Source: an uncultured Lachnospiraceae bacterium | Lineage (GTDB): Bacteria > Bacillota > Clostridia > Lachnospirales > Lachnospiraceae | DNA: 32,531 nt | Reading direction: 5' to 3' | Assembly: GCA_947628955.1 (NCBI GenBank) | Contig: CANRBX010000034.1 | Coordinates: 1 to 32,531, forward strand | Part shown: positions 274-23,068 of the stretch, one piece after another | Layout: every line of letters begins with the position of its first letter | How positions within the stretch are numbered: the first letter of the stretch is position 1 | Made by a program: the position numbers and the translations under genes | The notes under the pieces: generated by a model | The model's input: the letters and a program-made list of their open reading frames with translations, nothing else | What the model was told of the DNA's origin: nothing | Database searches by the model: none

Positions 274-1827
274 ATGAAATTACTGATTGCAGACGACGAG
301 GAACTGACGCGCACCGGCGTGATCTCTTCTCTCGACTGGGCCGCGCTCGGCGTGGATGAGATCCTCCAGGCGGACGACGGACTTCACGGACTCGAGATCG
401 CGCGGAAATACCGGCCTGAGATCATTCTGTGCGACGTGCGGATGCCCCGGATGGACGGGATCACGATGCTGCAGCAGCTCGAGCAGACACTGCCCGACTC
501 CGTGGCGATTTTCATGAGCGGCTACTCCGACAAGGAATATCTGAAGGCCGCGATCCGGCTGAAGGCCGTAAACTACATAGAAAAACCGCTGAATCCTTCC
601 GAGATCCGGGAGGCCTTTCTCGCTGCCAAGGAGCTGTACTGGCAGAAGGTCCACTCGCACCGCGGCGAATCCCTCTACTCGATGGAGACCGCCTCCCAGC
701 TCGCGCTCCAGCTCACAGTACCCTACGGGGCGAACGAAGAGCTGATCCGGCGGCTGGCGGGCGAGCTGTCCCTGCAGTTCACGCAGGACACCTCCTTCAC
801 CACCTTTATCGTCCGGCCGGATTCCTCCGCGGACACCGGCGAACTGCCCGCAGACGCGGTCTTTCCGGGTTTCCGGAATTTTCTCATGCAGTATGGCCTC
901 AGGGCCGTCTGCACGGAAAAACACAGGCAGTACGCCGTGTTCTGTGTGTTCGGGGAGAGCCGCCCGACGCCGGAGCTTCTCTCAGAGATCGGCGCGTTTC
1001 TGGGCGGCCTCTATGCGCCCTGCGGAAAGTATATGCTGGCCGCCGGCGACACGCAGCAGGGGCCTGCACAGGCCTATTCCGCCTACGCCTCCGCTGTCGT
1101 CGTTCTGCAGAGCTGCTTTTTCTACCCGGCAGACACATTTCTCATGCCGCAGATCCTGCAGCAGGAGGACGCCCGCCGTGAGCCGCTTCCGGATTCCCTG
1201 GAGGCCCGCTTCAGCGAGTCGCTGGCCGGGCGCAGCCCGGAAGCCTGCCAGGCACTTCTGGACCAGCTTTTTTCCTTTTTCTTCCGGAACAGCACCGTGT
1301 TCCAGAACCAGGCCAAGGATCTGTACTACAAGCTGCTCCTCTCCCTGGAGGACGCCAAAAAGCAGATGCAGCTCGGCGCGGATCCGGATTCCGGCAACAT
1401 CGTGGACATCCTGGAGTCGTGCTTCAGCTTCCAGGAGCTCCACACAGTACTGTCCGAGAAGACCGGGGACTTCTTCCGGCGGCTGGAGCATTCGGCGCGC
1501 GAAAATTCCACGATCCGCCTGATCAAGGAATACATCGGCAAAAATTATGCAAACGAGCTGCTGTCCGTCCGGGACATCGGAGACCACGTGTTCCTGTCCG
1601 CCTCCTATGTCTGCACGTTTTTCAAAAACGAGACCGGGCAGACGCTGAACCAGTATCTGACGCAGTACCGCATGGAAAAGGCAAAGCAGCTTCTGGACGA
1701 CCCGCGCTACCGGATCACGGACATCTCCGCGATGGTCGGCTACAGCGACAGCAGCTATTTCGGAAAGAGCTTCCGGAAGTACTGCGGGCTGTCGCCGTCG
1801 GAATACAGAGAACGGACGTCCGGCTGA
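274..1827 (+). CDS. YesN-type response regulator with AraC DNA-binding domain
   Basis: Cytoplasmic transcription factor of a two-component system, 517 aa. Residues 1-120 form a receiver domain: acidic pair D7/D8, phosphoacceptor D54 in the context LCDVRMP, the conserved Ser/Thr in FMSGYSD near residue 82, and the conserved Lys in IEKPL near 104. The last ~105 residues are an AraC-type double helix-turn-helix, ending with the usual pattern of ITDISAMVGYSDSSYFGKSFRK. The ~280 residues between are variable in this family and I see no named domain there. The partner kinase starts 28 bases downstream and is clearly co-transcribed. YesN/YesM pairs usually govern nearby carbohydrate-related genes, but the next gene here is convergent, so the target is not evident. 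ATG start with GGGG upstream. Confidence 0.93.
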   Translation: MKLLIADDEELTRTGVISSLDWAALGVDEILQADDGLHGLEIARKYRPEIILCDVRMPRMDGITMLQQLEQTLPDSVAIFMSGYSDKEYLKAAIRLKAVNYIEKPLNPSEIREAFLAAKELYWQKVHSHRGESLYSMETASQLALQLTVPYGANEELIRRLAGELSLQFTQDTSFTTFIVRPDSSADTGELPADAVFPGFRNFLMQYGLRAVCTEKHRQYAVFCVFGESRPTPELLSEIGAFLGGLYAPCGKYMLAAGDTQQGPAQAYSAYASAVVVLQSCFFYPADTFLMPQILQQEDARREPLPDSLEARFSESLAGRSPEACQALLDQLFSFFFRNSTVFQNQAKDLYYKLLLSLEDAKKQMQLGADPDSGNIVDILESCFSFQELHTVLSEKTGDFFRRLEHSARENSTIRLIKEYIGKNYANELLSVRDIGDHVFLSASYVCTFFKNETGQTLNQYLTQYRMEKAKQLLDDPRYRITDISAMVGYSDSSYFGKSFRKYCGLSPSEYRERTSG

Positions 1828-1854
1828 GCTCCCGGGCGGCAGATTGGAGCTTTT

Positions 1855-3672
1855 ATGAGACACTTTTTCTCCTCCGTGCGGCAGCATTACGGCGATCTGC
1901 ACCTGCAGACCAAGATCACGATCGTCCTGATGCTGGTCGTCACGGTTCCCGTGCTGATGCTCGGCATCTTTTTTTACGGACGGCTGTACGACATGGTCGT
2001 CTCGTACACCATCCGGCAGGAGCAGGACACCTCCGCGAAAACCTCCCCGATGGTCGGGGACATCATCCGGCAGATCCTTGATGTAAACGCAGAGCTCAAC
2101 AGCCTGCCCTTCTGCGCCGCGGCCTTCGGCCCTGAACCCGTCACACCCGACGGGCTTGCCGAAACCGCGGCGTCCGGCGATTTCCGCGGCCAGACCGAGC
2201 GCCTGACCGACGGGGATCTGATCACAGCCATCCGCATCTACGCCGACCTGCCGGACCAGGACCAGCTTCTCTTCCGGCACGAGGCGACACAGGACATCTT
2301 CCGCCCCCTGTCCGCGGTGCGCGGAACCTACTGGCACGGCATTTTCAGCGCGGGCACGGTCCGCGAGCTCTTCTGCCCGTCCTTCTACCTCGGGACGCGC
2401 GAGCGCGCGGAGAACGGCGACATCGCCTATATCCAGGCCGCGGAGATCCGCTTCCCGGACGGGACGGTTCCCTGTTATCTTGCCGTCTATTTTTCGGCTG
2501 AGCCCTTTATCAGGATCCTCACGGACAACCTCAAGCTGGACGGCGGCGTCTCCTACATCATGAATGAGCGCAATACGCTCGTGGCGTCCTCCGACGCCTC
2601 CCTGTCGGGGATCTACTGGCTCAACTACGATACCATCCGCAGCTCGGCGGTTTCCTCGAACAATTTCATCGAGCGCACGATCCTTGAGAACCGGGTCTAC
2701 GCCGGCTTCTACAGCATCCCGCAGACCGAGTGGTACATGGTGACGATCCTGCCGTCCGCGCCGCTGATCCGCCAGAGCAACACCATCATGGTGCAGTATA
2801 TCCTGTTCTACCTGGCGTTCCTGGTGGTCGCGTTTCTGCTCTCCATTTTTCTGGCCCGCTCCGTCACTGGCCGTATCTCATCCGTCATCGACCAGATGCG
2901 GCAGGTCCGCCAGGGGCCCCCGGTTCCGATGGAGGATCCGCGCTACCACGACGAGGTCGGAGATCTGATCGACACCTACAACTACATGACGCGGGCCATG
3001 GACCAGCTGATGAAGGAACAGGCGCAGGCCGCCGAGGATCTGCGCATCGCAGAGTTCAACTCCCTGCAGGCCCAGATCAACCCGCATTTTCTCTACAACA
3101 CGATGGACATGATCAACTGGCTGGCCCAGCAGGGACGCACCTCGGAGGTCAGCGATTCCGTGCAGGCGCTCTCGCGCTTCTACAGGCTCACGCTGAGCCG
3201 GAAGCAGAGCATCAGCACGATCGACCAGGAGGAAGAACATGTCTCCATCTATGTCCGCCTGCAGAATATGCGCTTTCACGGCAGCATCTCCTTCATCTCC
3301 GATATTCCGGACGAGCTTCTGGGATATCAGATCCCGAAGCTGACGCTCCAGCCCGTCATCGAGAACGCCGTCCTGCACGGCATTCTGGAGAAAGACAGCA
3401 AGTCAGGCACGATCGTCCTGACCTGCTGGATGGAGGGCGAGGATATCGTGATCCTCGTCTCGGACGACGGAGTGGGCATCCCTCCGCAGAAGCTCGCCAC
3501 AATCCTCACCGGGGACGGAAAGAGCTCATCCGGCGGCACGAACATCGCAGTCTACAACACGCACCGCAGGCTGCAGATCCTCTACGGAGAGGAATACGGC
3601 CTTTCCTACTCGAGCGTTCCCGGCAGGGGGACGGATGTACAGATCCGCATCCCGGCCCGCAAGGCACAGTGA
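1855..3672 (+). CDS. YesM-type membrane sensor histidine kinase
   Basis: Inner-membrane sensor kinase of 605 aa, partner of the response regulator just upstream. There is an N-terminal membrane helix (about residues 20-40, ITIVLMLVVTVPVLMLGIFF), an extracytoplasmic sensor region (about 45-305, Cache-like by position), and a second membrane helix (about 312-335). A HAMP linker follows, then the His_kinase domain with phosphoacceptor H411 in QINPHFLYNT. The C-terminal ATPase domain shows the N-box (LQPVIENAVLHG) and the G-box (VSDDGVGIPP). This is the standard YesM/LytS-like plan and length. The start has GGAG nine bases upstream. The signal sensed cannot be told from the sequence. The stop codon lies inside the first unit of a 72-bp tandem repeat. 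Confidence 0.93.
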   Translation: MRHFFSSVRQHYGDLHLQTKITIVLMLVVTVPVLMLGIFFYGRLYDMVVSYTIRQEQDTSAKTSPMVGDIIRQILDVNAELNSLPFCAAAFGPEPVTPDGLAETAASGDFRGQTERLTDGDLITAIRIYADLPDQDQLLFRHEATQDIFRPLSAVRGTYWHGIFSAGTVRELFCPSFYLGTRERAENGDIAYIQAAEIRFPDGTVPCYLAVYFSAEPFIRILTDNLKLDGGVSYIMNERNTLVASSDASLSGIYWLNYDTIRSSAVSSNNFIERTILENRVYAGFYSIPQTEWYMVTILPSAPLIRQSNTIMVQYILFYLAFLVVAFLLSIFLARSVTGRISSVIDQMRQVRQGPPVPMEDPRYHDEVGDLIDTYNYMTRAMDQLMKEQAQAAEDLRIAEFNSLQAQINPHFLYNTMDMINWLAQQGRTSEVSDSVQALSRFYRLTLSRKQSISTIDQEEEHVSIYVRLQNMRFHGSISFISDIPDELLGYQIPKLTLQPVIENAVLHGILEKDSKSGTIVLTCWMEGEDIVILVSDDGVGIPPQKLATILTGDGKSSSGGTNIAVYNTHRRLQILYGEEYGLSYSSVPGRGTDVQIRIPARKAQ

Positions 3673-3974: not shown

Positions 3975-6830
3975 TTAATCATTGAAAACCGCCACAAAGG
4001 TTCTGCCCGCATGTTCGGGGCCAAAGACACCGCCGCTGTACAGATCACCTGTACGCTGTACGCTGTCTTCCCCTGCTGCGATCACCTGCTGCCAGCCGGC
4101 AAATCCGGCGCCCTCAGGCACAGGAGCCGCAAAGCTTACATCGCTTCTCCGCGTCGGGATATAGGCGTGATACATTTTGCCGTCCATCCAGACAAGGGTG
4201 TGATACCATTTGCTCTCAAATCCGGCCGGAACCTGGCTCCAGCCCTTCTCCGACAGGAATACCGTCCACTGGATGTAGCCGCTTGTCGTACCGTTTTCCC
4301 TGGCACTCTCGTATCCGCAGGCCGGATTGCCCGGAACATGTCCTCTGCGGGGGATTACTTTGTATGTGCCGCACTTGGTGCATCTGACAAATCCTGTCAT
4401 CTCACACTTTTCATCCTCCATGGCTATCCCGACCAAGCTGCTGACGCTGGCCTGTGCCCAGCTGTGGCCGCCCAGGGACGGGATCGTCTCCGGTTCCACG
4501 CCGTCTTTGTAGGCATTGCATCTCGAGCACTGTGCGTAGGCAGTGCATCCGTCCTCGGTGCAGGTCGCCTGCTTCTGTGCATGGCTGACCCACTTGTGCT
4601 CAGCCAGCGCCGGCAGGACCGTCTCCCTCACGTCGCCGCACACGCTGCACCTTTCTTTTCTGCTGCCCTGCACGCCGCAGGACGGCTCAACAGTCTCGAA
4701 CGTGGTGTAGCTGTGGCCGGCTGCCTTTATGACAGTTCCCTGCCGCTCTCCGCAGACCTCGCAGATCTTCCCCTGGAATCCGTCTTCCGTGCAGGTAGCC
4801 TCTATGCTTGCCTCTTCCCACGTGTGTGCCGTCTTCGGAAGGGTTTTCACAGCCGTCTTCTCATCGCAGCGTATACATTTTCTGTAGGACAGACCGGTCG
4901 ACGAGCAGGTCGCCTCTTCCACGGTCGTCCCCGTGCAGAAGTTGTGTCCGAGCGGCTTCACATAGGAAAACAGCTCCATCTGGCAGTACGGGCAGATGCT
5001 TCTGTTCCTCTTGCCGGACGTCGTGCAGGTAGGCTCGATATCCGCCTGCGGCACCATGACGTCCTCTCTGTGCTCGACGCCGCCGGTGACGTTCCTGTAA
5101 TTGCAGACCGTGCAGTAATATATGACATAGTTATAGCAGTGGTTCCCCGGAACGTGCTCAACATGCTTCTCGCCATACTTATGTCCCGCGGCCGCAAACG
5201 TGCGCGTCTTGCTCAGACCGCAGCGGGTGCATCTGCTCTCCTCGATCCCTTCCTCCGTACAGGTGGCGTCCTTCACCACACTCCACGACACATGGTTGTG
5301 TCCGAGCGGGGACAGGGATCTGTAGTACGGCTGGTAGCCGCAGTCCTGGCAGTACTCATAGGGCTCCCATCCCCACGAGGTACAGGTGGGCTGTTTCCCT
5401 TCCACTGAAACCATCCTGTGGGGTGTTTTTGCAACCGTGTCCGGCGTCGTCGCATAGCCGCAGCGGGTGCATGTGTCATATGCCGTCAGCCCTGTGCTTG
5501 TGCAGGTCGGGGCAACCGCCGCATGGTGGACGAGCTCATGTCCGAGTGCCGAGAGCACCAGCGGAGTCGTCCTGTAGCCGCAGACCGTGCAGTACTCATA
5601 GGAGCTCAGTCCGGTCTCGGTGCAGGTCGGGGCAACCGACTCGACCACTACCAGGCCAAGGTGCTTCTTCCCGCACTTTGCCTCTGTCTCCCGCACAGCA
5701 GGTGCGTTTGTCTGGGGCGCTTCTGTCTCCTTCACACTCGGTGCAGGTGCAGGCGCTTCCGTCTCCTTCACACTCGGTGCGGACGCGGTCGTCTTCTCTG
5801 CAGCCGGTGCGGATGCCGGAGTTTTCTGTGCTGCTGTCGGGGTCTTCTGTACAGTCGGTGTCGGCGCAGGTGTCGTCTCCACGCTCGGCGCGGATGCCGG
5901 AGTTTTCTGTACAGCCGGTGTCGGCGCAGGTGTCGTCTCCACGCCCGGCGCGGATGCCGGAGTCTTCTGTACAGCCGGTGCAGGCGCAGGTGTCGTCTCC
6001 ACGCTCGGCGCGGAAACCGGAGCCTTCTGTACAGCCGGTGCAGGCGCAGGTGTCGTCTCCACGCTCGGCGCGGATGTTACCGGAGTGCTCGCCGCGGGAA
6101 CATTTTCCCTGGCCGGAGCCGTGTCAGAAGCTGTCACTGCAGCCGGAGCTTCCGCTGCGGCCTTCTCTGCCGCCGGGGCTGCTTCCGTCTCAGGAGCCGG
6201 CTCTGCGGTTTCTGCTGCCAGAGCAGCAGCCGGTGCCTCCTGCGCGGATTCCTGTGCTGCCGGCGCTTCTGCCGCCGTGTCTTCGCTCTCGCCTCGAACG
6301 TCAACCTTCAGCAGCTTCACATAAGCGGCAGTCTTTCCATCCGGAACAGTGACGACTGTCTTCTTCGAAACTCCCTTCAGAGCATTCTTGTCAACAGTCT
6401 TGAGCACCTTACTCTTGATATCGACTGTCTTCAGCTTTTTGCAGCCCGCGAACGCGTTTGCCTCGATCTTTTTGATCGCCGTGTTCGTGACTACCTTTTT
6501 CAGCTCTGTGCAGTCCTTGAATGCGCCTTTGCCAATCGCATCCACCGTCAGGGTGTATTTCACCTTCTTTACGGTTTTCGTCACAGTTTTCGGCACATTC
6601 ACGGAAGTCACACTGGACTTTGCGCCAACCAGCGCGGCTGTGCCTGTTTTCCCCTTCAGAGAGGTAACCTTGTACTGAAGCTTTCCGCTCCAGAACTCCG
6701 TTCCCTTTTTGAAGGAGCTCGTTTTTGCCTTCGCCGCAGCCGGAATTGTCGTGCTGACCGTCCCAACATTAACAGCCATCATCAGTACCATCATCATCAG
6801 TAAACATTTTAACCATTTTTTCATCTTCAT
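3975..6830 (-). CDS. Secreted LRR protein with Cys/His module array (copy 1)
   Basis: 951-aa secreted protein of unknown function. Residues 1-35 are a signal peptide (KWLKCLLMMMVLMMAVNVG core, then Ala-rich). Residues ~45-175 carry BspA-type LRR_5 repeats (AIGKGAFKDCTELKKVV, IEANAFAGCKKLKTVDI). Residues ~175-383 are Ala/Pro/Thr/Glu-rich, with a 20-aa unit (APSVETTPAPAPAVQK...) encoded by a 60-bp DNA repeat. Residues ~383-855 hold about eleven modules of the form PTCTETG-x8-CxxCG-x10-GH, each with one Cys, a CxxC and usually a His. The final ~95 residues have a Flg_new/InlB-repeat look (SEKGWSQ, GFAGWQQV, TFVAVFND). There is no LPXTG anchor. The gene follows a c-di-GMP-I riboswitch and has an AGAGGAGGG ribosome binding site. 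Adhesion or matrix function is likely by analogy only. Confidence 0.88.
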   Translation of the reverse strand: MKMKKWLKCLLMMMVLMMAVNVGTVSTTIPAAAKAKTSSFKKGTEFWSGKLQYKVTSLKGKTGTAALVGAKSSVTSVNVPKTVTKTVKKVKYTLTVDAIGKGAFKDCTELKKVVTNTAIKKIEANAFAGCKKLKTVDIKSKVLKTVDKNALKGVSKKTVVTVPDGKTAAYVKLLKVDVRGESEDTAAEAPAAQESAQEAPAAALAAETAEPAPETEAAPAAEKAAAEAPAAVTASDTAPARENVPAASTPVTSAPSVETTPAPAPAVQKAPVSAPSVETTPAPAPAVQKTPASAPGVETTPAPTPAVQKTPASAPSVETTPAPTPTVQKTPTAAQKTPASAPAAEKTTASAPSVKETEAPAPAPSVKETEAPQTNAPAVRETEAKCGKKHLGLVVVESVAPTCTETGLSSYEYCTVCGYRTTPLVLSALGHELVHHAAVAPTCTSTGLTAYDTCTRCGYATTPDTVAKTPHRMVSVEGKQPTCTSWGWEPYEYCQDCGYQPYYRSLSPLGHNHVSWSVVKDATCTEEGIEESRCTRCGLSKTRTFAAAGHKYGEKHVEHVPGNHCYNYVIYYCTVCNYRNVTGGVEHREDVMVPQADIEPTCTTSGKRNRSICPYCQMELFSYVKPLGHNFCTGTTVEEATCSSTGLSYRKCIRCDEKTAVKTLPKTAHTWEEASIEATCTEDGFQGKICEVCGERQGTVIKAAGHSYTTFETVEPSCGVQGSRKERCSVCGDVRETVLPALAEHKWVSHAQKQATCTEDGCTAYAQCSRCNAYKDGVEPETIPSLGGHSWAQASVSSLVGIAMEDEKCEMTGFVRCTKCGTYKVIPRRGHVPGNPACGYESARENGTTSGYIQWTVFLSEKGWSQVPAGFESKWYHTLVWMDGKMYHAYIPTRRSDVSFAAPVPEGAGFAGWQQVIAAGEDSVQRTGDLYSGGVFGPEHAGRTFVAVFND
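5750..6075 (-). repeat. 60-bp coding repeats in the first LRR protein
   Basis: A 60-base unit, seen on the plus strand as GTGTCGTCTCCACGC followed by TCGGCGCGGATGCCGGAG and CTTCTGTACAGCC, recurs about five times with few changes, plus shorter derivatives. It encodes the 20-residue Pro/Thr/Ala/Glu-rich unit. The near-identity of the DNA, not only of the protein, points to recent expansion or homogenisation. Confidence 0.85.
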
Positions 6831-6837
6831 ACGATAC

Positions 6838-6925
6838 CCTCCTCTCCAACTATAAAGCAGTTGTTCGTTTCGGGTCCATATTTCCTGTCACAGGATTTAA
6901 AGCATATCTTGTGAAGCACATAAGA
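6838..6925 (-). promoter_or_regulatory. Expression platform of riboswitch 1
   Basis: This stretch lies between the aptamer and the start codon of the first LRR gene. I see no terminator with a U-tract. The bases CCATATTTC at the 3' edge of the aptamer (plus 6924-6932) are perfectly complementary to GAAATATGG (plus 6876-6884) near the ribosome binding site. The latter lies in a 15-base block that is identical in the second leader (plus 6876-6890 and 10347-10361). Control could be by alternative pairing; the direction of control is not clear. Confidence 0.5.
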
Positions 6926-7012
6926 AATATGGCAACCGGCTGTCATAGCCGCGCAGGCGGCCTTAGACCCATAGCTTTGCGTCCCTGCTTTTCAGCAGGT
7001 TTGCCCTTAGAA
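6926..7012 (-). ncRNA. c-di-GMP-I riboswitch (GEMM) 1
   Basis: On the minus strand the sequence runs GGGCAAACC, a short hairpin (CTGC TGAAAA GCAG), the signature GGGACGCAAAGC, TATGGGTCTAAGG, a GC-rich P3 arm, then CAGCCGGTTGCC. This order and wording match the c-di-GMP-I aptamer as known from the Vibrio cholerae Vc2 RNA, including the GGCAA/TTGCC closing helix P1 and the CTAA tetraloop-receptor side. It ends about 95 bases before the ATG of the first secreted LRR protein, in the same direction. Confidence 0.93.
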
Positions 7013-7301
7013 CATTTTCTTCTCGTTGTCATGTTACTTTAGTGTAATGTCTTCATGTAATCATTTGCTGAATCATAGCTCTGTCTACTGTTTTTAACTC
7101 TGATACTCACAGCTGCCTGTTTTCCCCGCATCACCTCCCCCTCAGATATTTTATGCCCTGTCAGGCAAAGTGTACAGGGCACAAAACCGGGACATCTCCG
7201 TGACAGATTCCCTGCTCTTATCATACACGACGGGCAGAGAATCGTCAAGAAAACCTGTTAAAAGATTTACGCAAATCCGTGATTATCCATAGATTCCCGC
7301 A
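7013..7301 (-). other. Intergenic region upstream of riboswitch 1
   Basis: This must hold the promoter for the riboswitch 1 transcript, but I find only a poor sigma-A candidate (TTACAT, 18-base spacer, TAACAT, around 7030-7060). A 30-codon minus-strand ORF (7039-7131, MRGKQAAVSIRVKNSR...) has a GGGGGAGG just before its ATG. It has no recognisable family and its last codons overlap the candidate promoter, so I do not call it a gene. Confidence 0.3.
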
Positions 7302-7349
7302 GAAAAAGAGGGCCGCCGCAAAACCTTCTGACAGTTTTGCGGCAGCCCC
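7302..7349 (-). terminator. Intrinsic terminator of the second LRR gene
   Basis: 23 bases after the stop codon at 7372, the minus strand forms a strong stem (GGGCTGCCGCAAAAC with GTTTTGCGGCGGCCC, loop of about nine bases) followed by TCTTTTT. This is a classical rho-independent terminator and separates the two LRR genes into different transcripts. Confidence 0.88.
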
Positions 7350-7371
7350 CCTGGTGTCTGCTTCAGAAATA

Positions 7372-10302
7372 TTATTCTCCTGCTTCTTCTATGATCTCCG
7401 CTGCATCCTCAGCCTCCGCCGCCGGCTGTCCCGGCTCTGCTGCAGGCTGTCCCGCCGCGGCGGTCTCCTGCTGCGCGGGATCTTCGTTCGCGGCCGCCGG
7501 TGCGTCCGCCAGATGCTCGGACAGGTCGAACTGATGCTCACCGTGAATGACCTGCGGGATCTCTGTCTGCTCCTGCATCTGCAGGGCAGCCTGCTCCGCC
7601 TCTGTGATATAATGTGCCGTGAAGACCACATTCATGTAATCGCAGGGTACCGACAGCTCCGTCCTGTCGATGCTGCCATCCTCAAGCTTCTCATAAAGAT
7701 CGTCCGGGATCTCTTCCTCGCTGTGGGACCAGGTCCACTTCTCAAACACATAACCCGCATTCGGCTCCGGCGCCTCCACTTCTATGCGATTGTCCGAAGA
7801 TATGCTGGTAAGTACTGCGGAATAGGATGTGCTTCCGTCGGACAGCCTGAATCCGCCGCACACATTGGAATCTGCCTTAAACGTGGCATCCCACACAATG
7901 CGGGCCCTTGCGTTTGTCTCTCTGCCCGTCTCCGGATCTGCCTGGCCTCCCTCCGGCCTGGTCGTTCCGCAGACACTGCAGTATACGTGGCCGTTTTCCT
8001 TTGGCTCGCCCCACGTGTGTCCCTTTCCGTTGCACGGAACCTCGGACCATGGAACCCAGCTTTCTCCGATGTTGTACGCGTACCGCAGCTCACTGCACTT
8101 CGTGCATCTCTCGGTCCGTATTTTTCCGGTATCGCTCATGGACGCCAGTGCGCCCTCCTGGTCTCCCGGCTGGCCTGTGACGTGAACCCACTCATGATCA
8201 CATTTTACCCGCGGGATCACCACCGTCTCTACATAGCCGCACCCTTCATTCGTGCACTCTCTTACGGCGTGTCCTTCTACCTCCGTCGTAGCGTATGTCT
8301 CGATTTTTTCCTCCGTCATATTATGCTGCTTCATGGTGCCGGAAACAGTCTTTATGCTCTTGTAATCACATTTCGTGCAGGTGGTCTCAATCTTCTCGTT
8401 CCGGTAGCAGGTCGCCTCAATCTTTGTCTCTATGAAGTCATGCCCGACCGCCGGGATGCGCTCCGACTTTATCTCTGTACATCCTGCATGCGCACAGGCA
8501 ATCTCCCTCAGGCCGTCCTGCACACAGGTTGCCGCCTTCTCAGAGAGAATCTGGCCGGAAGCGAAATCGTGTCCGGTCTTCGGCGCTGTCACCGTCTCGT
8601 TCTGTATCTGGCCGCAGCGGCTGCACTGGTCATAGGAACGTCCGTCCTGTGTGCAGGCAGCCGGATCGTCATGATGCACCATCTCGTGGCCAAGGGCACT
8701 CCGGATGTTTCCATCCGCATCATGAGAATCAACCGTCTGGTAGCCGCAGAGCGCACACTTGTAGTACGTGGCGCCGTTTTCCGTACAGGTCGGCTCCACA
8801 TCCTTTAGCACCTCAAACTGGTGCTCTTCCAGCCTTATGCCCTTCGTCACGGTCTTGCCGCAGATCGGGCAGGTGCCGGTTTTGCTTCCCGTATCGCGCC
8901 AGGTCATATCATAACCAAGATAACCGCAGTATGGCTCCTTCGTCACAACCCAGATAAACTCACACACATGCGGAGCCTCTGTCTCCGGGGCCTGCGGAGC
9001 TTCTGTTGCCTGTATTACGATCTCCGTCTGCGGTGCATTCGTCTCCGGAGTTTTTGCCGCTGCCTTCGGGGCTTCGGTCTGCGCCGGGGCCTTTGCTGCC
9101 ACTTTCGGGGCCTCGGTCTGCGCCGGGGCCTTTGCCGCTGCCTTCGGGGCCTCTGTCTGCGCCGGGGCCTTTGCCGCCGGAGCTGCTGCCTTAGGAGCTT
9201 CCGTCTGCGCCGGGGCCTTTGCCGCCGCCTTCGGGGCCTCTGTCTGTGCCGGGGCCTTTGCAGCTGCCTTCGGGGCCTCTGTCTGCGCCGGGGCCTTTGC
9301 CGCCGGAGCTGCTGCTTTCGGAGCTTCCGTCTGCACCTGGGCCTTTGCTGCCGCCTTCGGAGCCTCGGTCTGCGCCGGGGCCTTTGCCGCCGGAGCTGTC
9401 GCTGCCTTCGGGGCTTCCGTCTGTGCCGGGGTCGCTGCCTTAGGAGCTTCTGTCTGCGCCGGGGCCGCTGCCGCCGGAGCTGTCGCTGCCGTCGGAGCCT
9501 CGGTCTGCGCCGGGGCCTTTGCCGCCGGAGCTGTCGCCGCCTTCGGAGCCTCGGTCTGCGCCGGGGCCGATGCTGCCTTAGGAGCCTCTGTCTCCGGTAC
9601 TCTCATCTCGGTCTGAGCCGGAACCTCAGCCACAGAAGCTTCTGCCGCCGGGGCCTTTACCTCTGCTGCGGACGACGGCAGAGCTGTATCCGCAGAATCC
9701 TCTGCGCCCGGTACAGCCGTCTCAGGCGCGGCCTGCGGCTGCTGTGCGGCCGGAGCTTCCGTCTCCGGTTCCTGAACAGTGACATTCAGCTTCTTCTCAT
9801 AGGAAGCAGCCTTCCCCTCCGGAACGCTGACGACCACATCGCCCGGCACGCCCTTCATGGCGCTCTTGTCAACACTTGTCAGCTTCCTGCTCTGGATGTC
9901 TATCTCTTCAAGCTTTTTGCAGCCGGAGAACGCGTTTTTGCCGATCTTTTTGATCTCCGTGTTCGTGACTACCTTTGTGAGCTTCCTGCAGTCCTTGAAC
10001 GCGTTTGCCCCGATCTCATTTACCGTCAGGGTATATCCGCTTTTTTTGACCGTCTTCGGAATGTTTGCCGTCTTCACGCCCGAATCCGCGTCTATCAGCG
10101 CCACGGTTCCGGTCTTCTTCTTCGTGTTCACGGAAGTTACCTTATACTGAAGCTTTCCGCTCCGGAATTTCGTTCCCTTCTCAACAGCCGCTTTTTTCGA
10201 GCTCGTGGCCGCGGAAGCCGTCAGGCCCGCTGTCCCGACATTGACAGCCATCATCAGGGCGATGACCATCAGCAAACATTTTAACCATCTCTTCGTCTTC
10301 AT
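7372..10302 (-). CDS. Secreted LRR protein with Cys/His module array (copy 2)
   Basis: 976-aa paralogue of the first secreted protein, with the same N-terminus (WLKCLLMVIALMMAVNVGTA signal peptide, then LRR_5 units such as EIGANAFKDCRKLTKVV). Residues ~177-444 are an extreme low-complexity region built from AKAPAQTEAPKAA units. Residues ~444-795 carry about eight Cys/His modules (VEPTCTENGATYYKCALCGY...LGHE type), somewhat more diverged than in copy 1. The C-terminal ~170 residues include a GYVFEKWTW segment like InlB/Flg_new repeats and an acidic Ala/Glu tail. No sortase motif or membrane anchor is visible. It has its own promoter, c-di-GMP-I riboswitch, terminator-type switch and GAGGAGGG ribosome binding site. 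Probably a surface or extracellular matrix protein; function unproven. Confidence 0.88.
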   Translation of the reverse strand: MKTKRWLKCLLMVIALMMAVNVGTAGLTASAATSSKKAAVEKGTKFRSGKLQYKVTSVNTKKKTGTVALIDADSGVKTANIPKTVKKSGYTLTVNEIGANAFKDCRKLTKVVTNTEIKKIGKNAFSGCKKLEEIDIQSRKLTSVDKSAMKGVPGDVVVSVPEGKAASYEKKLNVTVQEPETEAPAAQQPQAAPETAVPGAEDSADTALPSSAAEVKAPAAEASVAEVPAQTEMRVPETEAPKAASAPAQTEAPKAATAPAAKAPAQTEAPTAATAPAAAAPAQTEAPKAATPAQTEAPKAATAPAAKAPAQTEAPKAAAKAQVQTEAPKAAAPAAKAPAQTEAPKAAAKAPAQTEAPKAAAKAPAQTEAPKAAAPAAKAPAQTEAPKAAAKAPAQTEAPKVAAKAPAQTEAPKAAAKTPETNAPQTEIVIQATEAPQAPETEAPHVCEFIWVVTKEPYCGYLGYDMTWRDTGSKTGTCPICGKTVTKGIRLEEHQFEVLKDVEPTCTENGATYYKCALCGYQTVDSHDADGNIRSALGHEMVHHDDPAACTQDGRSYDQCSRCGQIQNETVTAPKTGHDFASGQILSEKAATCVQDGLREIACAHAGCTEIKSERIPAVGHDFIETKIEATCYRNEKIETTCTKCDYKSIKTVSGTMKQHNMTEEKIETYATTEVEGHAVRECTNEGCGYVETVVIPRVKCDHEWVHVTGQPGDQEGALASMSDTGKIRTERCTKCSELRYAYNIGESWVPWSEVPCNGKGHTWGEPKENGHVYCSVCGTTRPEGGQADPETGRETNARARIVWDATFKADSNVCGGFRLSDGSTSYSAVLTSISSDNRIEVEAPEPNAGYVFEKWTWSHSEEEIPDDLYEKLEDGSIDRTELSVPCDYMNVVFTAHYITEAEQAALQMQEQTEIPQVIHGEHQFDLSEHLADAPAAANEDPAQQETAAAGQPAAEPGQPAAEAEDAAEIIEEAGE
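9040..9600 (-). repeat. 39/48-bp coding repeats in the second LRR protein
   Basis: On the plus strand, units built on GCCTTCGGGGCCTCTGTCTG and CGCCGGGGCCTTTGCCGC repeat more than a dozen times, with an optional CGGAGCTGC insertion. They encode APAQTEAPKAA(A/P)AK. The copies are nearly identical at DNA level, so the number of units is likely to vary between strains. Confidence 0.88.
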
Positions 10303-10389
10303 ACAATACCCTCCTCATTTTCTCCAGACTGCTGCTTCGTCTCGGCCCATATTTCCTGTCATACGGTCTTCAGAGAAATTCCCGGAGTC

Positions 10390-10428
10390 AAAAATAACCG
10401 CCTGATTATTCTTCATAATCAGCGGTTA
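10390..10428 (-). terminator. Riboswitch-associated intrinsic terminator
   Basis: Between the aptamer and the start of the second LRR gene the minus strand reads TAACCGCTGATTAT, a short loop, ATAATCAGGCGGTTA (one bulged base), then TTTTT. This is a convincing terminator located inside a leader. Its 5' arm begins GGTAACCG, which can pair over eight positions (one G-U) with CGGTTGCC at the 3' end of the aptamer. The aptamer helix P1 and the terminator therefore compete with an antiterminator, and ligand binding is predicted to favour termination. Confidence 0.82.
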
Positions 10429-10465
10429 CCACTAAATCTCCTATGTCTGTCTGACTCGTCATAGA

Positions 10466-10548
10466 AATATGGCAACCGGCTGTCCTAGCCTGTACTGACC
10501 TTAGACCCCTGGCTTTGCGTCCCTGTCTTTCGGCAGGTTTGCTTTTAA
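10466..10548 (-). ncRNA. c-di-GMP-I riboswitch (GEMM) 2
   Basis: The minus strand reads AGCAAACC, a P2 hairpin capped by a GAAA-type loop (CTGCC GAAA GACAG), GGGACGCAAAGCC, AGGGGTCTAAGG, a P3 arm, then CAGCCGGTTGCC. It matches the same c-di-GMP-I signature as riboswitch 1 and is nearly the same at the conserved positions, while the variable arms differ. It begins about 17-25 bases after the predicted transcription start and precedes the second LRR gene. Confidence 0.93.
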
Positions 10549-10571
10549 AACAATTTCTTCGATTCAGATTC

Positions 10572-10600
10572 ATAATACTACTGCCCGGCCCCTTTGTCAA
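10572..10600 (-). promoter_or_regulatory. Sigma-A promoter of the riboswitch 2 transcript
   Basis: On the minus strand TTGACA (10595-10600), a 17-base spacer and TATTAT (10572-10577) make a near-consensus promoter. Transcription would start about 10563-10566, just before the aptamer. Confidence 0.88.
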
Positions 10601-10611
10601 CCACATTTTGC

Positions 10612-10648
10612 CTGAATCGGTTGAATCGGTTGAATCTGTGGTTGAATT
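10612..10648. repeat. 9-bp direct repeats upstream of the promoter
   Basis: GAATCGGTT, GAATCGGTT and GAATCTGTGGTT follow one another just upstream of the -35 of the riboswitch 2 promoter. The last unit is part of a 16-bp sequence (AATCTGTGGTTGAATT, 10633-10648) that recurs exactly at 12820-12835. They could be activator or repressor sites, or the edge of an inserted segment. Confidence 0.5.
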
Positions 10649-10973: not shown

Positions 10974-12461
10974 TCATTTTAGAATAATCCACTTTCCACC
11001 TTTATCCGGTCCTTCCCGTTTGATTCGTTTTTTGACTTTAAGTTTTTTGATGATGCGTTCAACTGTGGATATGGGGATGCCGGTTATATTCGCTATTTTG
11101 GTTCCGGAAATGGAGGAATCCTTTTGCATAAGTGATAGTACGGCACTTTCTCTTTCGGTCAGTCCAACTTTCACTTCACGGTTATGACCTTCATTTTCTC
11201 CCTCATTATGATGGAGAAAATAAGGGTGAATGAGAAGCGTAGTTGAGAAAGATAAGCGGTCAGGATCCGTTTCAAAAATGGGCATTGGAGAACCATTCTG
11301 TGATAATGCGTTCAATATTTTACGGAATCCGGTATTACGTCCCTCAGTGAGGTGCATTTCCTTTAGAAATTCTCCAATACGCCGATTGCGGTAGCGTCTG
11401 TTAAAGACACGGTAGGTTCTCAGACCTTCTTCTGTGATGGAGCGATCCGCACCGGGATGACTGACGATTTCTATTTTATCCGGCAAAATACGGACTTCAA
11501 TCGGTTCCCGGACATCGTAACCCTTATGATAGACGGCATTGCAGAGACTTTCCTCAATGGCTGCATAGGGGTAGTTGAAAAATCGGTCGGCTTCCGCACG
11601 GTCAGCGCGTTTGATCACCTGTTCTGTGATAACAGTATTGCGAATATAAAGCAATGCCTCACGAAGCTGTTGGTGAAGGGGGCCCTTGAAGGTTTTTTCT
11701 ATGATCTTGTCCCCGCCCAGATCATCGGGAAACTGGACGACATCAATCTGCGCATATGGGAAGAAACGCTGCGGCTCCAGGCTGAAGAACATCAGGCCGA
11801 CATTCTTGGGCTTTGTATATTCAGGCAGAGAATTTACAATATTCATATTCCGGCACAGCTCGATGAAATCCATTTGTCGGGATTCTTCATAGAGTGAACT
11901 CCCTATCTCTTTGAGATACGCCTGTATCAGCGTAAGATTCAAATCGGCCAAATCTGCTTCATGGCTGATTCTGTCGTCAAAAGGCACATTGTTTGCAAGA
12001 TTATAGAGGTCTCGTTTTTCTTCTTCGGATGGCACTATGGTGCTGGCCATTTTCCGAATATAATAAATTCGTTCCTTTTCTCCCTTCGCCATGGATTTTG
12101 GAGAGGAATATGGACGTAGATATCCCCCTGGAGCCCAGATGACGATAAACTTCTTCCCGTCATAGTCGGCAACCTCTACGATAGGAAGGTACTCGGGCTG
12201 AATACGCTTACATTTGTTCAGCATGTCTTTCAAATAGGAGTCAATCTTTTCCACGGGGACGCCCTGAAGTACACCGGGTCGGCCATCTTTTTCTTTCACA
12301 CCGATTACAATATATCCGCCGCCCCAGTTGTCAATATCATTTGCAAACGCACAAATTGTTTTAAGGGAAGCTTCTGCGTCCCACGTTTCCTTAAATTCAA
12401 TTCTTGCCCACTCCACGACATTTCCGGAGAGTAAGGTTTTAATATTAGTTGGAACGGCCAT
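10974..12461 (-). CDS. AlbA_2 / HATPase_c_4 putative transcriptional regulator
   Basis: 495-aa cytoplasmic protein. Residues ~10-140 form an AlbA_2 (Schlafen-like) DNA-binding domain: EFKETWDAEASLKTICAFAND, then GGGYIVIGVKEKDG. Residues ~255-400 are an HATPase_c_4 domain, with AIEESLCNAVYHKGYD and the late motif RNRRIGEFLKEMHLTEGRNTGFRKI. The last ~65 residues are a winged helix (LTERESAVLSLMQKDSSISGTKIANITGIPISTVERIIKKL). Such genes are common accessory genes in gut Firmicutes and Bacteroidetes; their targets are mostly unknown. The gene is clearly AT-richer than its neighbours, which suggests transfer. It overlaps the end of a dead helix-turn-helix ORF. The ATG has a modest GAGG upstream. 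Confidence 0.85.
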   Translation of the reverse strand: MAVPTNIKTLLSGNVVEWARIEFKETWDAEASLKTICAFANDIDNWGGGYIVIGVKEKDGRPGVLQGVPVEKIDSYLKDMLNKCKRIQPEYLPIVEVADYDGKKFIVIWAPGGYLRPYSSPKSMAKGEKERIYYIRKMASTIVPSEEEKRDLYNLANNVPFDDRISHEADLADLNLTLIQAYLKEIGSSLYEESRQMDFIELCRNMNIVNSLPEYTKPKNVGLMFFSLEPQRFFPYAQIDVVQFPDDLGGDKIIEKTFKGPLHQQLREALLYIRNTVITEQVIKRADRAEADRFFNYPYAAIEESLCNAVYHKGYDVREPIEVRILPDKIEIVSHPGADRSITEEGLRTYRVFNRRYRNRRIGEFLKEMHLTEGRNTGFRKILNALSQNGSPMPIFETDPDRLSFSTTLLIHPYFLHHNEGENEGHNREVKVGLTERESAVLSLMQKDSSISGTKIANITGIPISTVERIIKKLKVKKRIKREGPDKGGKWIILK

Positions 12462-12913: not shown

Positions 12914-13090
12914 AGATTTTACGCGGTATACCCAAAGGGCACCCCGTAACTCACGCCCCTCCGGGGCCGGTTTTATGCTGTATACCCACGGGGCACCCCG
13001 TAACTCATGCCCCTTCGGGGCAGATTTTACGATGTATACCTAAAGGTACCCCGTAACTCATGCCCCTCCGGGGCCGGTTTCATGCGGTAT
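12914..13090 (-). repeat. 54-bp tandem repeats trailing rhaB
   Basis: Three full units plus the gene end, spaced 54, 54 and 53 bases. On the minus strand each unit carries TATAC, two codons, a stop, then a GGCCCCGGAGGGGC-type hairpin and GAGTTACGGGGT. The four versions of the gene tail are TAT ACC GCA TGA (the true rhaB end), TAT ACA TCG TAA, TAT ACA GCA TAA and TAT ACC GCG TAA. Each reads Tyr-Thr-Ala/Ser-stop. The repeats fill the 3' UTR between the rhaB stop and the terminator. Confidence 0.88.
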
Positions 13091-14483
13091 ATATCTTGAC
13101 GTCGAACGACTCGTGGATCACGGTGCGGGCTTCTTCGATCGAAGTAAATTCGCCTGCCTCGAGCATCTGCGCCGTGATGTTGCCGATCGCGGTCGCCTCT
13201 CCCGGGCCTGCATGGACTTCCTTGCCGGTCGCTCTCGCGGTCAGTTCGTTCAGGTAGCCCGCATTGGAGCCGCCGCCCACGACGTGGATGCGGTGATACG
13301 TTCTGCCCGTCATCTCTTCAAGCTCCTTCGCCGTCTTTGCATAGCACTCCGCAAGGCTTGTGTAGATCACTGTCGCCAGCTCCCCGAGCGTCTCCGGAAC
13401 CTGCTGCCCGGTCCTGCGGCAGAAGTCCTTCACGGCCTCGGTCATGTTGTCCGGGGAAAGGAAGCAGTCCGCATTCGCGTCCACCCTTGACGGGAAGTCC
13501 TTCGCCTCCTCCGCCATATCGCAGATCTGCGCAAAGCTGTATTTATCGCCAAATTCATGGCGCACGGACTGGATCATCCACAGGCCCATGATATTCTTCA
13601 GATAGCGGAAGCGTCCCGCGTAGCCGCCCTCATTCGTGAGGTTGCGCCGGAAGCTCTCCATCGAGCAGTCCGCCGTCGGGCGCTCCAGGCCCATCAGCGA
13701 CCACGTGCCGGAGCTGATATAGATAAAATCGTCGTCGTTCGCCGGAACCGCGAGCACCGCAGAGCCGGTGTCATGCGTAGCCGGAGCGACCACCTGCAGG
13801 TCGAAGCCGACTTCTTTGCGCACTTCCTCGCTGAGGCCGCCGATCACCGTCCCCGGCATGATCAGCTTCTGGAAAATCTTCCGCGGATATCCGAGCATAT
13901 CCATCAGCTCATAGTCCCAGTCCATCGTCGTCGGGCTGACGAGCTGTCCCGTCGTCGCCTCCGTGTACTCGCAGGTCTTCTTTCCGGTCAGCAGATAGTG
14001 GAAATAGTCCGGCACGTGCAGAAGCGTTTCCGCCTGCTCGAGGTACTCCGGATGCTTTTTCTTAACAGCCATCAGCTGATAGATCGTATTGAAGATCGCC
14101 TTCTGAATGCCGGTGCGCGCGTACAGCTTCTCGTGCGGAATGATCTTATAGACTTCCTCGTCCATCCCGTCCGTGCGGTGGTCGCGGTATCCGACCGTAT
14201 TGCCGAGCACTTTATCGTCCTTGTCCAGAAGCACAAAATCCACGCCCCACGTATCGACGCCCATGCTCACCGGGATCTTGCCGATCTCTTTGCACTTCTT
14301 CATCCCGGCGATGATCTCCTTATACAGGCGGTCAAACTCCCAGCAGAGTTCCCCGTCCTTCTTCACCATGCCGTTCTCGAAGCGCCAGACCTCTTCAAGC
14401 TCCATCTTTCCGTTTTCCAGATGCCCCAGGATCAGTCGTCCGCTCGACGCTCCGATATCCACGGCCAGATAATATGCACTCAT
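13080..14483 (-). CDS. rhaB: Rhamnulokinase
   Basis: FGGY-family sugar kinase, 467 aa, that phosphorylates L-rhamnulose to rhamnulose 1-phosphate using ATP in the cytoplasm. The N-terminal phosphate-binding motif AVDIGASSGRLILG, the segment GVDTWGVDFVLLD, the mid-protein HDTGSAVLAVPA and SSGTWSLMG, and the C-terminal HVVGGGSNAGYLNELTA all fit RhaB. L-fuculokinase is a related alternative but the wording is RhaB-like. It is the last gene of the operon, 51 bases after pduO, with an AGGAGG site before the ATG. Its presence links the microcompartment to L-rhamnose. The stop codon is within the first unit of a 54-bp repeat. Confidence 0.9.
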   Translation of the reverse strand: MSAYYLAVDIGASSGRLILGHLENGKMELEEVWRFENGMVKKDGELCWEFDRLYKEIIAGMKKCKEIGKIPVSMGVDTWGVDFVLLDKDDKVLGNTVGYRDHRTDGMDEEVYKIIPHEKLYARTGIQKAIFNTIYQLMAVKKKHPEYLEQAETLLHVPDYFHYLLTGKKTCEYTEATTGQLVSPTTMDWDYELMDMLGYPRKIFQKLIMPGTVIGGLSEEVRKEVGFDLQVVAPATHDTGSAVLAVPANDDDFIYISSGTWSLMGLERPTADCSMESFRRNLTNEGGYAGRFRYLKNIMGLWMIQSVRHEFGDKYSFAQICDMAEEAKDFPSRVDANADCFLSPDNMTEAVKDFCRRTGQQVPETLGELATVIYTSLAECYAKTAKELEEMTGRTYHRIHVVGGGSNAGYLNELTARATGKEVHAGPGEATAIGNITAQMLEAGEFTSIEEARTVIHESFDVKIYTA

Positions 14484-14534
14484 TGTTCATCCTCCTTTTT
14501 GTGGTTTTATAAGATATATTTATATTCTCCGCTG

Positions 14535-15740
14535 TCAGGTCTCACTCAGTATCTCTTCCAGTCTCGACAGACCGTACATCGCGAGCGAGTGGTCTTCCTC
14601 TCCGGTGCCGCCGCTGACGCCCAGCCCTCCGATGATCGTTCCCCCGGCCACAATTGGCACGCCGCCGCCGAAAATGATGATGTTGCCGCCCTCCATCTTG
14701 TCAAGCCCGTAGAACGTTCCGCCCGGCTGTGCCAGCGCATTCAGCTCCATCGTGGACATTTTAACCGCCACAGAGGTGTAGGCCTTTTTGACCGCCACGT
14801 CAAAGCTTACAAGGAAGGCCCCGTCCATCACGTGCACGGCGATCGGGTTACCCTCCGGATTGCAGACCGCGATCACGGCCTTTTTGCCGCGGCGCTCTGC
14901 CTCTTTTTCTATCTCCCCGATCAGCCTCTTGGCCTGCTTTAGAGTAATTCTGCCCGGCGTACCCACGCGCCGGAGCACCTCCTGTATCACGGCCTCGCTG
15001 ATCTGCTGATTTCCATTCTCCTCCATCGCCGACTCTCCCATGCCTGTCCGGCTGCCGCCGGCTGCTCTCATCTCATACGGTTCCTTCTGTCCCGGAAGCT
15101 CCCGGCCTTCTGCCGCATACTCCCCTGCGCCTGCCCCGGACGCTCTGCCGTACTGCGCCGGGGACGTCCGGTTTTCGTTTTCCCCCGCTTCCGGCCGGCT
15201 GCTTCCCGCCGCTTTCGCATCCTCATACCGCGCAAGCACATACAGGTAATCCGCCAGGCGGTTCATATACTTCTTCGTCCCGTTGTCCGAGCCGAACTTC
15301 ACGCTGACGCTCGCGAGCGCGCGCTCCGCCCTCCTTGCCACGGTCCGGGCGATATCGATCTCCGCCGACAGCCGGTTCTGTCCCGGCAAAATGAAGTACT
15401 TCGGGCGCTCAAACAGCGCCTCCATGTGATCGATCTCTGCCTCAACGGCTTCCGTCTTCTCATCACCGATCCTGTAATCTTTATTGTAAGGATCTGCCAC
15501 GCCGGACATCACCGTGATCAGCGTCTGCTGGATCTCCTCCAGAAACGTTGCTGCGCGCTGTGTCTCCGCCGCGGGGCCGGTCTCCCGGCGCTCCCGGAGC
15601 ATGGTCTTCACCAGGCCGAGATGGCTCGTCAGCTCGTCGATGCTGCCGACAAGCTGAATGCGGTCGTCCGACTTGGACACGTTTTTTGTGTGGATCAGGC
15701 TTGTGATTCCCTTATCTCCGCCCCTGGTGTAAATGTTCAT
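14535..15740 (-). CDS. pduO: PduO-type ATP:cob(I)alamin adenosyltransferase with HbpS-like domain
   Basis: 401 aa. Makes adenosylcobalamin, the cofactor of the diol dehydratase in this operon. Residues 1-~175 are the PduO adenosyltransferase domain (MNIYTRGGDKGITSL at the start, RRAERALASV and the late MNRLADYLYVLARYED). A ~75-residue Gly/Ala/Glu linker follows. The C-terminal ~150 residues are a GlcG/HbpS-like domain (ITLKQAKRLIGEIEKEAE, GGGVPIVAGGTIIGGLGVSGGTGEEDHSLA). The linker ends in ISEAVIQEVLRRVG, an amphipathic helix like the encapsulation peptides nearby. I chose the ATG at 15740 because GGGAG lies eight bases before it; the ATG five codons earlier has no usable site. Confidence 0.92.
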   Translation of the reverse strand: MNIYTRGGDKGITSLIHTKNVSKSDDRIQLVGSIDELTSHLGLVKTMLRERRETGPAAETQRAATFLEEIQQTLITVMSGVADPYNKDYRIGDEKTEAVEAEIDHMEALFERPKYFILPGQNRLSAEIDIARTVARRAERALASVSVKFGSDNGTKKYMNRLADYLYVLARYEDAKAAGSSRPEAGENENRTSPAQYGRASGAGAGEYAAEGRELPGQKEPYEMRAAGGSRTGMGESAMEENGNQQISEAVIQEVLRRVGTPGRITLKQAKRLIGEIEKEAERRGKKAVIAVCNPEGNPIAVHVMDGAFLVSFDVAVKKAYTSVAVKMSTMELNALAQPGGTFYGLDKMEGGNIIIFGGGVPIVAGGTIIGGLGVSGGTGEEDHSLAMYGLSRLEEILSET

Positions 15741-15791
15741 ACTGACATCTCCCAAATTTCCTGTCTGTGGTCACTGTCATGAAGCTCTGCA

Positions 15792-16136
15792 TCACTCCGG
15801 CCCGCTCACCGGCTTAAACGGCAGCTTTTTCACCGCCCGCGCGCTGTTCGCCCCCAGATTCCGGCACTGCCGGAAGGACGGCATGTCCAGCTCAAAAACA
15901 TTTTTTCCCCGCGGGAGCCGCTGCATCTGCATCGCCAGCCGCGCGCCGCACATCCCAATCCCGGAGCCGAGCATCGACTCCGCGGCCGCCTCATAGGCGA
16001 GACCGTCCAGATCGCCCTCATGCGTCTGCACCTGGTACAGCACACCCTCTTCCTCGATCCCCGCGCAGACCTCGCGAAGGAGGTCCTCGTCGGGCTCATG
16101 TACATAAATCATAATCGTCGGCCGGTTCACAACCAT
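15792..16136 (-). CDS. pduH: Diol dehydratase reactivase small subunit
   Basis: 114 aa, PduH/DdrB family. With the large subunit it removes damaged cobalamin from the dehydratase in an ATP-dependent way. The family pattern is visible: TIMIYVHEPDEDLLREVCAGIEEEGVLYQV and SMLGSGIGMCGARLAMQMQRLPRG, which resembles the corresponding fold of the dehydratase medium subunit with which it exchanges. AAGGAGG stands seven bases before the ATG. Unlike the tightly packed pduCDEG block, it is separated from pduG by 118 bases that contain a folded RNA element. Confidence 0.88.
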   Translation of the reverse strand: MVVNRPTIMIYVHEPDEDLLREVCAGIEEEGVLYQVQTHEGDLDGLAYEAAAESMLGSGIGMCGARLAMQMQRLPRGKNVFELDMPSFRQCRNLGANSARAVKKLPFKPVSGPE

Positions 16137-16177
16137 GCGGGGTCCTCCTTATGAAAATCGGGCTGCGCCTCACTCTT

Positions 16178-16248: not shown

Positions 16249-16254
16249 AACTGT

Positions 16255-19276: not shown

Positions 19277-19325
19277 GGCGTTCCTCCATTTATTTCCATA
19301 CGCGCCCGGCCCGTGCCGGCCGCCG

Positions 19326-23035: not shown

Positions 23036-23068
23036 ACCTCCATCCCTCTCCTTTCACTTCAGGCAATC

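Follow-up and report, generated by a model that had tools for sequence, protein, structure and literature searches.

Separate c-di-GMP-I aptamers ahead of two paralogous LRR/Cys-module genes in a Lachnospiraceae genome, with predicted OFF control

We found that two paralogous genes of an uncultured Lachnospiraceae bacterium, both coding for predicted secreted LRR/Cys-module proteins, are each preceded by an aptamer of the c-di-GMP-I class. The locus is a well-supported new occurrence of this class, unusually split across two paralogous leaders. Judged by their sequences both aptamers should bind c-di-GMP, and we consider it rather probable that c-di-GMP represses both genes, with premature termination as the likely route for gene 2 and masking of the start codon as a possible one for gene 1. 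We infer that both proteins belong to the low-c-di-GMP state.

RESULTS

Organization of the locus

The window, meaning the whole stretch of DNA that was analyzed, is one entire contig of 32,531 bases from a 3.5 Mb draft genome with a completeness of 93.8% and a contamination of 6.2%. On the minus strand we observed, in the order of transcription, aptamer 2, gene 2, aptamer 1 and gene 1. Together with the accompanying signals these features are:

10572..10600, minus strand: promoter-like site of gene 2, TTGACA-17-TATTAT, 11 of 12 matches, adjoining aptamer 2
10468..10553, minus strand: aptamer 2, c-di-GMP-I (RF01051), A at the Vc2-G20 position
7372..10302, minus strand: gene 2, paralog of 976 aa with the layout of gene 1 and fewer Cys modules
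7310..7348, minus strand: 15-nt inverted repeat and T-rich run 3' of gene 2, likely terminator
7220..7248, minus strand: promoter-like site of gene 1, TTGACG-17-TATGAT, 10 of 12 matches, ~205 nt upstream of aptamer 1
6928..7015, minus strand: aptamer 1, c-di-GMP-I (RF01051), G at the Vc2-G20 position
3975..6830, minus strand: gene 1, ORF of 951 aa with hydrophobic helix, LRR domain, linker, Cys modules and C-terminal domain

The promoter-like sites come from a scan that yielded 7 sites versus 2.0 expected. Because of the likely terminator after gene 2, the sequence suggests that genes 1 and 2 are likely separate transcription units. Just upstream of promoter 2 we noticed three 9-bp repeats at 10613-10639 (TGAATCGGT twice and TGAATCTGT once), which a 9-bp inverted repeat at 10597-10645 adjoins and partly contains; repeats and inverted repeat together might possibly form the site of a regulator. 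As for the neighbourhood, the gene of an AlbA_2/HATPase_c_4/winged-helix protein (10974-12461, minus strand) lies immediately upstream of aptamer 2, and a pair of an AraC-type response regulator and a histidine kinase (274-3672, plus strand) is convergent with gene 1. The region 13080-31435 (minus strand) holds rhamnulokinase, propanediol/diol dehydratase, reactivase and aldehyde dehydrogenase genes, probably a rhamnose/propanediol pathway.

Identity of the two aptamers

The preliminary description had recognized two c-di-GMP-I aptamers, one for each paralog, and both points hold. In a covariance-model search RF01051 matched 7015-6928 (minus strand; 81.1 bits, E 1.1e-14) and 10553-10468 (minus strand; 75.2 bits, E 3.1e-13), both scores being more than twice the gathering score of 35, and the aptamers lie 97 nt (aptamer 1) and 165 nt (aptamer 2) ahead of the respective ORFs. 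An Rfam scan of the window gave no family besides RF01051 above its cut-off. In the RF01051 alignment both aptamers show the GAAA tetraloop in P2 and the UGCC end, which, by an assignment borrowed from Cd1, would hold the ligand-pairing C in both. For 19 aptamers, including both of the window, the covariation score was above all 500 shuffles, with a structure derived from the same alignment. By our own count, P1 of aptamer 2 consists of three pairs only. The conserved cores had been described as near-identical; they differ at model position 11 of RF01051 (Vc2 G20), which is G in aptamer 1 and A in aptamer 2. A third aptamer of this genome, located on a different contig (G000:C17:7410-7493; L002, L004), has A at this position as well.

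The two proteins

The proteins had also been called paralogous, and this is borne out by 52% identity over 253 N-terminal aa and 59% identity across the LRR domains. LRR_5 (PF13306) was found in both with 44.1 and 43.7 bits (Pfam cut-off 27.7), which makes the repeats BspA-type LRR. In protein 1 the LRR domain covers residues ~40-182 and is followed by an Ala/Pro/Thr/Glu linker, the Cys modules and a C-terminal domain. We counted 11 Cys modules (C..C-x2-C..H) in protein 1, while protein 2 has 4 by the strict pattern and 6 CxxC. Compared with BspA-type LRR proteins (PDB 4oju, BACCAP_00569), the window proteins add the long linker and the Cys-module array. Among solved chains, protein 1 had matches with E <= 0.001 to its LRR part only; likewise the fold comparison took in mainly the LRR domain, and the top ranks of a plain Foldseek search were scattered and of low probability. 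Secretion is predicted for both because each has a hydrophobic stretch near its N-terminus, which we recognized by eye; in protein 1 this stretch was modelled as helical (residues 4-21). A sequence scan for the sortase-type motif [LIN]PxTG found it in neither protein. From their spacing one might guess that the Cys modules bind zinc, which we do not claim, and binding of a surface or a ligand via the LRR domain is likewise a guess.

Recurrence of the aptamer-LRR pairing

The pairing of a c-di-GMP-I aptamer with an LRR gene is also found in related genomes, as the preliminary description had led one to look for. When 47 genomes of the genus were searched with the LRR domain, 20 closest relatives stood out, and 19 of them have an aptamer directly upstream. 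These 20 matches, in 14 genomes, scored at least 178 bits and the next one 128 bits. Thirteen of the 20 belonged to the query alignment, and six of the seven outside it have an aptamer; in the previously unexamined genomes (G067, G068 and G069) this applies to five of six LRR relatives. None of the five lower-scoring matches that were checked (L206-L210) has an upstream aptamer. Among 79 loci of LRR relatives in named genomes, we observed an aptamer at three (L094 twice, L095, L097), where L094 is an uncultured Lachnospiraceae of the 'Lapin' MAG set and L095 is labelled Marvinbryantia (family Lachnospiraceae). Altogether c-di-GMP-I was found in 42 of the 60 genomes searched, the window genome counted, and 67 of the 78 aptamers of that search were placed. 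For 26 of these 67, including the third aptamer of the window genome, the roughly 1 kb that follows was kept out of the analysis. Aptamer-bearing gene pairs, 3.8 to 6.6 kb apart, occur also in G004, G008, G015 (where the second gene is of the Lys-rich kind) and G069, and G068 has a triple. Among the titles listed in searches of open-licence literature, none reported a c-di-GMP-I aptamer paired with an LRR/Cys gene, subscription papers lying largely outside these searches.

Leader 2: a predicted terminator switch

In leader 2 the promoter is followed by the aptamer and then by a terminator, with the following elements:

10469..10478, minus strand: antiterminator strand 1, CGGUUGCCAU, 3' strand and edge of aptamer 2 P1 (predicted pairing)
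10423..10432, minus strand: antiterminator strand 2, GUGGUAACCG, 5' arm of the terminator (predicted pairing)
10390..10429, minus strand: intrinsic terminator hairpin (10429-10394) and U tract (folding energy versus shuffles)

The terminator region (10386-10438) folds with -19.9 kcal/mol and none of 200 shuffles was equally stable; a simple pattern scan did not list this hairpin. For the antiterminator duplex between the 3' strand of P1 and the terminator 5' arm we calculated -16.3 kcal/mol, a strength reached by one of 500 base-shuffled arms, and pairing in the same register in seven other terminator leaders gave 0 to 46 of 500 shuffles as strong. Across nine leaders the invariant P1 strand CGGUUGCC pairs with the arm at 68 of 72 positions while the arm is variable at 4 of 8 places; this set comprises eight LRR leaders and one Lys-rich leader, with arms picked by hand, and the leaders are related rather than nine independent cases. 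Counted among the nine is G011:C36, whose terminator-like hairpin (-7.3 kcal/mol) is under the limit of -9 kcal/mol. In four Lys-rich relatives terminators are present and the antiterminator register does not fit (38 to 373 of 500 shuffles as strong); inspection by eye suggests that their aptamer edge and terminator arm might be able to pair in a different register.

From these pairings the following mechanism can be proposed. In the unbound leader the 3' strand of P1 (CGGUUGCCAU) would pair with the 5' arm of the terminator (GUGGUAACCG), and this antiterminator would permit read-through. Bound c-di-GMP would keep the 3' strand of P1 in the aptamer, so that the terminator could form and gene 2 would be off. 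According to folding energies, which include neither ligand nor tertiary contacts nor kinetics, the antiterminator beats P1 by about 8-9 kcal/mol as long as the terminator is incomplete; once it is complete and with no ligand, the lowest state is the terminator with P1 unformed, and the antiterminator lies 2.3 kcal/mol higher. Since the ligand-free model thus favours the complete terminator, leader 2 could be ON only by kinetic control, and a kinetic ON state is described in the accessible text on Cd1 (PMC9262584).

Cd1 (Cdi-1-3) is given there as an OFF switch before the flagellar operon of C. difficile, in which the antiterminator takes the ligand-pairing C (PMC9262584). As far as this account goes, the likeness consists in an aptamer followed by a terminator and in an antiterminator that uses the 3' strand of P1, as predicted for leader 2. 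An OFF platform of the Cd1 type, with an aptamer-free terminator and an antiterminator made with the P1 3' strand, is thus present in leader 2 by predicted pairing and is not seen in leader 1. In contrast to the flagellar operon of Cd1, the gene that follows here codes for a predicted secreted LRR/Cys protein, in a genus whose searched genomes yielded no FliG, and aptamer 2 has A at G20/G11. Because the layout of leader 2 is that of Cd1, it is predicted to be OFF, and by this analogy we regard a c-di-GMP OFF switch in leader 2 as likely.

The opposite logic, by which c-di-GMP would turn the genes on and the proteins would be those of the attached state, has its model in Bc2, described as a class I ON switch before cap, a collagen adhesin gene of B. 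thuringiensis (PMC4933901). In the accessible description Bc2 resembles our locus in that a class I aptamer and a terminator stand ahead of a surface protein gene, and differs by its ON logic. For C. difficile, the available part of one study reports class I switches that were uniformly OFF in reporter tests and one gene after a class I switch that was up >30-fold with c-di-GMP (PMC6200980). However, the leader 2 terminator contains no aptamer strand and is compatible with P1, whereas it is the alternative helix that disrupts P1 in the predicted pairing; the pilM ON switch, as described, makes its terminator from an aptamer strand (PMC9262584). We therefore consider ON control quite improbable and retain the OFF reading.

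If OFF control is true, the proteins would be made at low c-di-GMP, the opposite of a high-c-di-GMP attachment factor. The OFF-switch layout of leader 2 thus speaks against the role in c-di-GMP-induced attachment that the preliminary description had suggested. A part in a motile/sessile switch, suggested as well, fares no better for flagella: neither FliG nor CsrA was found in any of the 47 genus genomes, 25 of which reach a completeness of 90% or more with no more than 5% contamination. With FliG in 0 of 47, a flagellar switch is unlikely, as far as the assemblies are complete. In the window genome we found two GGDEF domains above cut-off and no EAL domain, which we count, together with the A at G20 and the short P1 of aptamer 2, among the points that weigh against our reading.

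Element X in leader 1

Leader 1 contains an additional element between its promoter and its aptamer:

7125..7219, minus strand: element X, two covarying hairpins and a GGAGGUG stretch

Element X is common to 12 leaders, 11 with an aptamer and that of G067. The latter belongs to a close LRR relative (L205, G067:C167, minus strand), in which promoter, element X and start region are kept and the c-di-GMP-I aptamer is missing. The hairpins of X have 9 pairs with changes on both sides compared to 3.8 after shuffling (none of 500 shuffles reached 9), and 87.3% of cells are paired compared to at most 52.5% in slid versions, the structure having been read off the same, related sequences. In the window, hairpin I is of ordinary stability (40 of 200 shuffles as stable), and for hairpin II 1 of 200 shuffles was as stable. 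A model of X recovers its 12 training sequences by construction. Within this genome it picked up one further good match, of 41.9 bits, ahead of an aptamer-less Cys-module gene (L236/L237), and in the genus it gave ten additional weak matches (E 0.0027-0.048). In 299 family genomes we obtained five hits with E <= 0.001 besides this genome, the best one in G294 (32 bits; E 2.3e-6, computed for one genome). These five are unconvincing, as by eye they look coding or antisense, and they precede no comparable gene.

Compared with known Rfam families, element X gave nothing above cut-off, and the weak matches at a permissive threshold look like chance. A loop of X contains ACGGA, which we take to be the CsrA motif; CsrA as the binder of this loop was rejected given its absence from the 47 genus genomes. 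Taken together, X looks like a genus-limited leader element that is sometimes in series with the aptamer, and it is a candidate for a new structured RNA.

Leader 1: possible start-codon masking

When both leaders were aligned, they were alike through the aptamer and alike again from GACAGGAAATATGG to the start; between these parts lie a poorly matching stretch and a 69-column block that leader 1 lacks and that carries most of the terminator. Of the 24 leaders examined, 12 have a terminator that reaches the limit of -9 kcal/mol; by this limit none of the 11 leaders of the leader 1 kind (X-type), window leader 1 included, has one. The two kinds were also inspected for promoters. Nine leaders of the terminator kind have a TTGAC-type promoter-like site immediately before the aptamer; in the 11 leaders of the leader 1 kind, which have TTGACG/C-like sites, the second promoter hexamer starts 182-265 nt upstream of the aptamer. 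Downstream of aptamer 1 we identified the following strands:

6924..6932, minus strand: CCAUAUUUC, strand at the 3' edge of aptamer 1 P1
6876..6884, minus strand: anti-P1 strand GAAAUAUGG, complementary to CCAUAUUUC
6872..6881, minus strand: AUAUGGACCC, predicted partner of the SD/start region once P1 forms
6829..6839, minus strand: GGGUAUCGUAU, SD end and first start-codon bases, predicted target of AUAUGGACCC

The anti-P1 strand lies 39 nt downstream of its complement. This complementarity is present in 11 of 11 X-type leaders and yields little covariation, because the sequence hardly varies. In unbound leader 1 the P1 edge CCAUAUUUC could pair with GAAAUAUGG; upon binding, AUAUGGACCC would be freed to pair with the end of the SD and the start codon, and gene 1 would be off. 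When P1 was forced in the model, the predicted access to the start codon of leader 1 went from 0.85 to 0.18, and access to the whole SD did not drop (0.59 and 0.63). Of the 10 other X-type leaders, start-codon access dropped by at least 0.1 in three, barely changed in six and rose in one, and across X-type leaders the SD access shifted by at most 0.10. The aptamer-less G067 relative retains GGAAAUAUGGACCC and the SD stretch, so GGAAAUAUGGACCC may serve another purpose. Because SD access stays steady, the effect appears in few homologs and G067 keeps the stretch, we propose a translational step in leader 1 with low confidence only, as a tentative reading of the folding model that falls somewhat short of even chances.

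We also asked whether a protein with an N-terminal extension could begin at GAAAUAUGG. Its AUG leads into the gene, in frame and without a stop, in only 9 of 16 leaders; in the other 7, both window leaders included, it is out of frame or stopped, and this candidate was rejected.

The same observations can be read in another way, namely that leader 1 no longer switches, that its aptamer is a remnant and that promoter 1 together with element X determines expression. The missing terminator, the many homologs that do not share the start-codon effect, the persistence of X and start region in aptamer-less G067 and the presence of X ahead of another Cys-module gene without aptamer are all in its favour. 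Against it, aptamer and anti-P1 complement are retained in 11 of 11 aptamer-bearing X-type leaders, and aptamer 1 outscores aptamer 2 (81.1 versus 75.2 bits). We judge this reading to be unlikely, and masking of the start codon stays our preferred proposal for leader 1.

The selectivity base

The A site of aptamer 2, occupied by G in most of the family, corresponds to G20 of Vc2 and G11 of Cd1. An A at this position, which we take to be the mark of GEMM-Ib, occurs in aptamer 2 and not in aptamer 1. In a survey of 55 genus aptamers, 54 of them readable and five with A in total, A was observed in 2 of the 3 aptamers of this genome versus 3 of the 51 others. Five more aptamers (three of G068 and two of G069), drawn from a set of 17, all have G. 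The literature describes G20 as contributing to selectivity among cyclic dinucleotides (PMC9262584) and reports cGAMP binding for a class I aptamer with the G20A change (PMC7288161; PMC6274999); in Cd1 the G11A change does not abolish binding of c-di-GMP (PMC9262584). The site would tune selectivity rather than decide binding.

On this basis the paralogs could read different signals, with aptamer 2 taking 3',3'-cGAMP also or instead and aptamer 1 taking c-di-GMP. The selectivity role and cGAMP binding reported for this base, together with the A in both aptamer 2 and the third aptamer of the genome, would fit; the c-di-GMP binding kept by Cd1 G11A does not. Nor do the synthases found fit: a SMODS-type CD-NTase gave no match in the genome (93.8% complete), and the two GGDEF domains above cut-off have D (canonical) in one and N in the other at the base-contact site, the Hypr-type Ser/Thr being in neither. 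Furthermore, the count of A was made post hoc and the aptamers are related. We think that different signals are improbable. As a separate observation, a GGDEF protein (L214, G000:C5), in which N replaces the base-contacting D (GHLEGNFAL), has by eye an N-terminus like that of a sugar-binding repressor.

A still more doubtful extension would be a two-signal device, in which both leaders go back to one ancestral switch that was split. Leader 2 would have kept the terminator, with G20A shifting its specificity toward a second cyclic dinucleotide, leader 1 would have lost the terminator and gained element X ahead of the aptamer, and the proteins would follow different cyclic dinucleotides at different expression levels. 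We prefer c-di-GMP as the predicted ligand of both aptamers.

DISCUSSION

Two further known arrangements can be compared with the locus. In Bc1, a c-di-GMP-I leader, regulation of transcription and of translation is combined according to the accessible description (PMC11218506); both levels act there in one leader, whereas here they would seemingly be divided between two paralogous leaders. Tandem c-di-GMP-I riboswitches are reported as 347 doublets and 12 triplets (PMC9481103). As far as they are described, they resemble the window in that a single locus comes with two or more class I aptamers, but in the window the aptamers, one per gene and each with a promoter of its own, are separated by 3.5 kb.

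Our findings link the c-di-GMP-I class of switches with a family of LRR/Cys proteins, predicted to be secreted, in Lachnospiraceae relatives whose searched genomes yielded no FliG. Since no FliG was found, c-di-GMP must serve something else in these bacteria. Moreover, the leaders constitute a natural series, with and without terminator, with G or A as selectivity base and with and without aptamer, on which the evolution of expression platforms may be tested.
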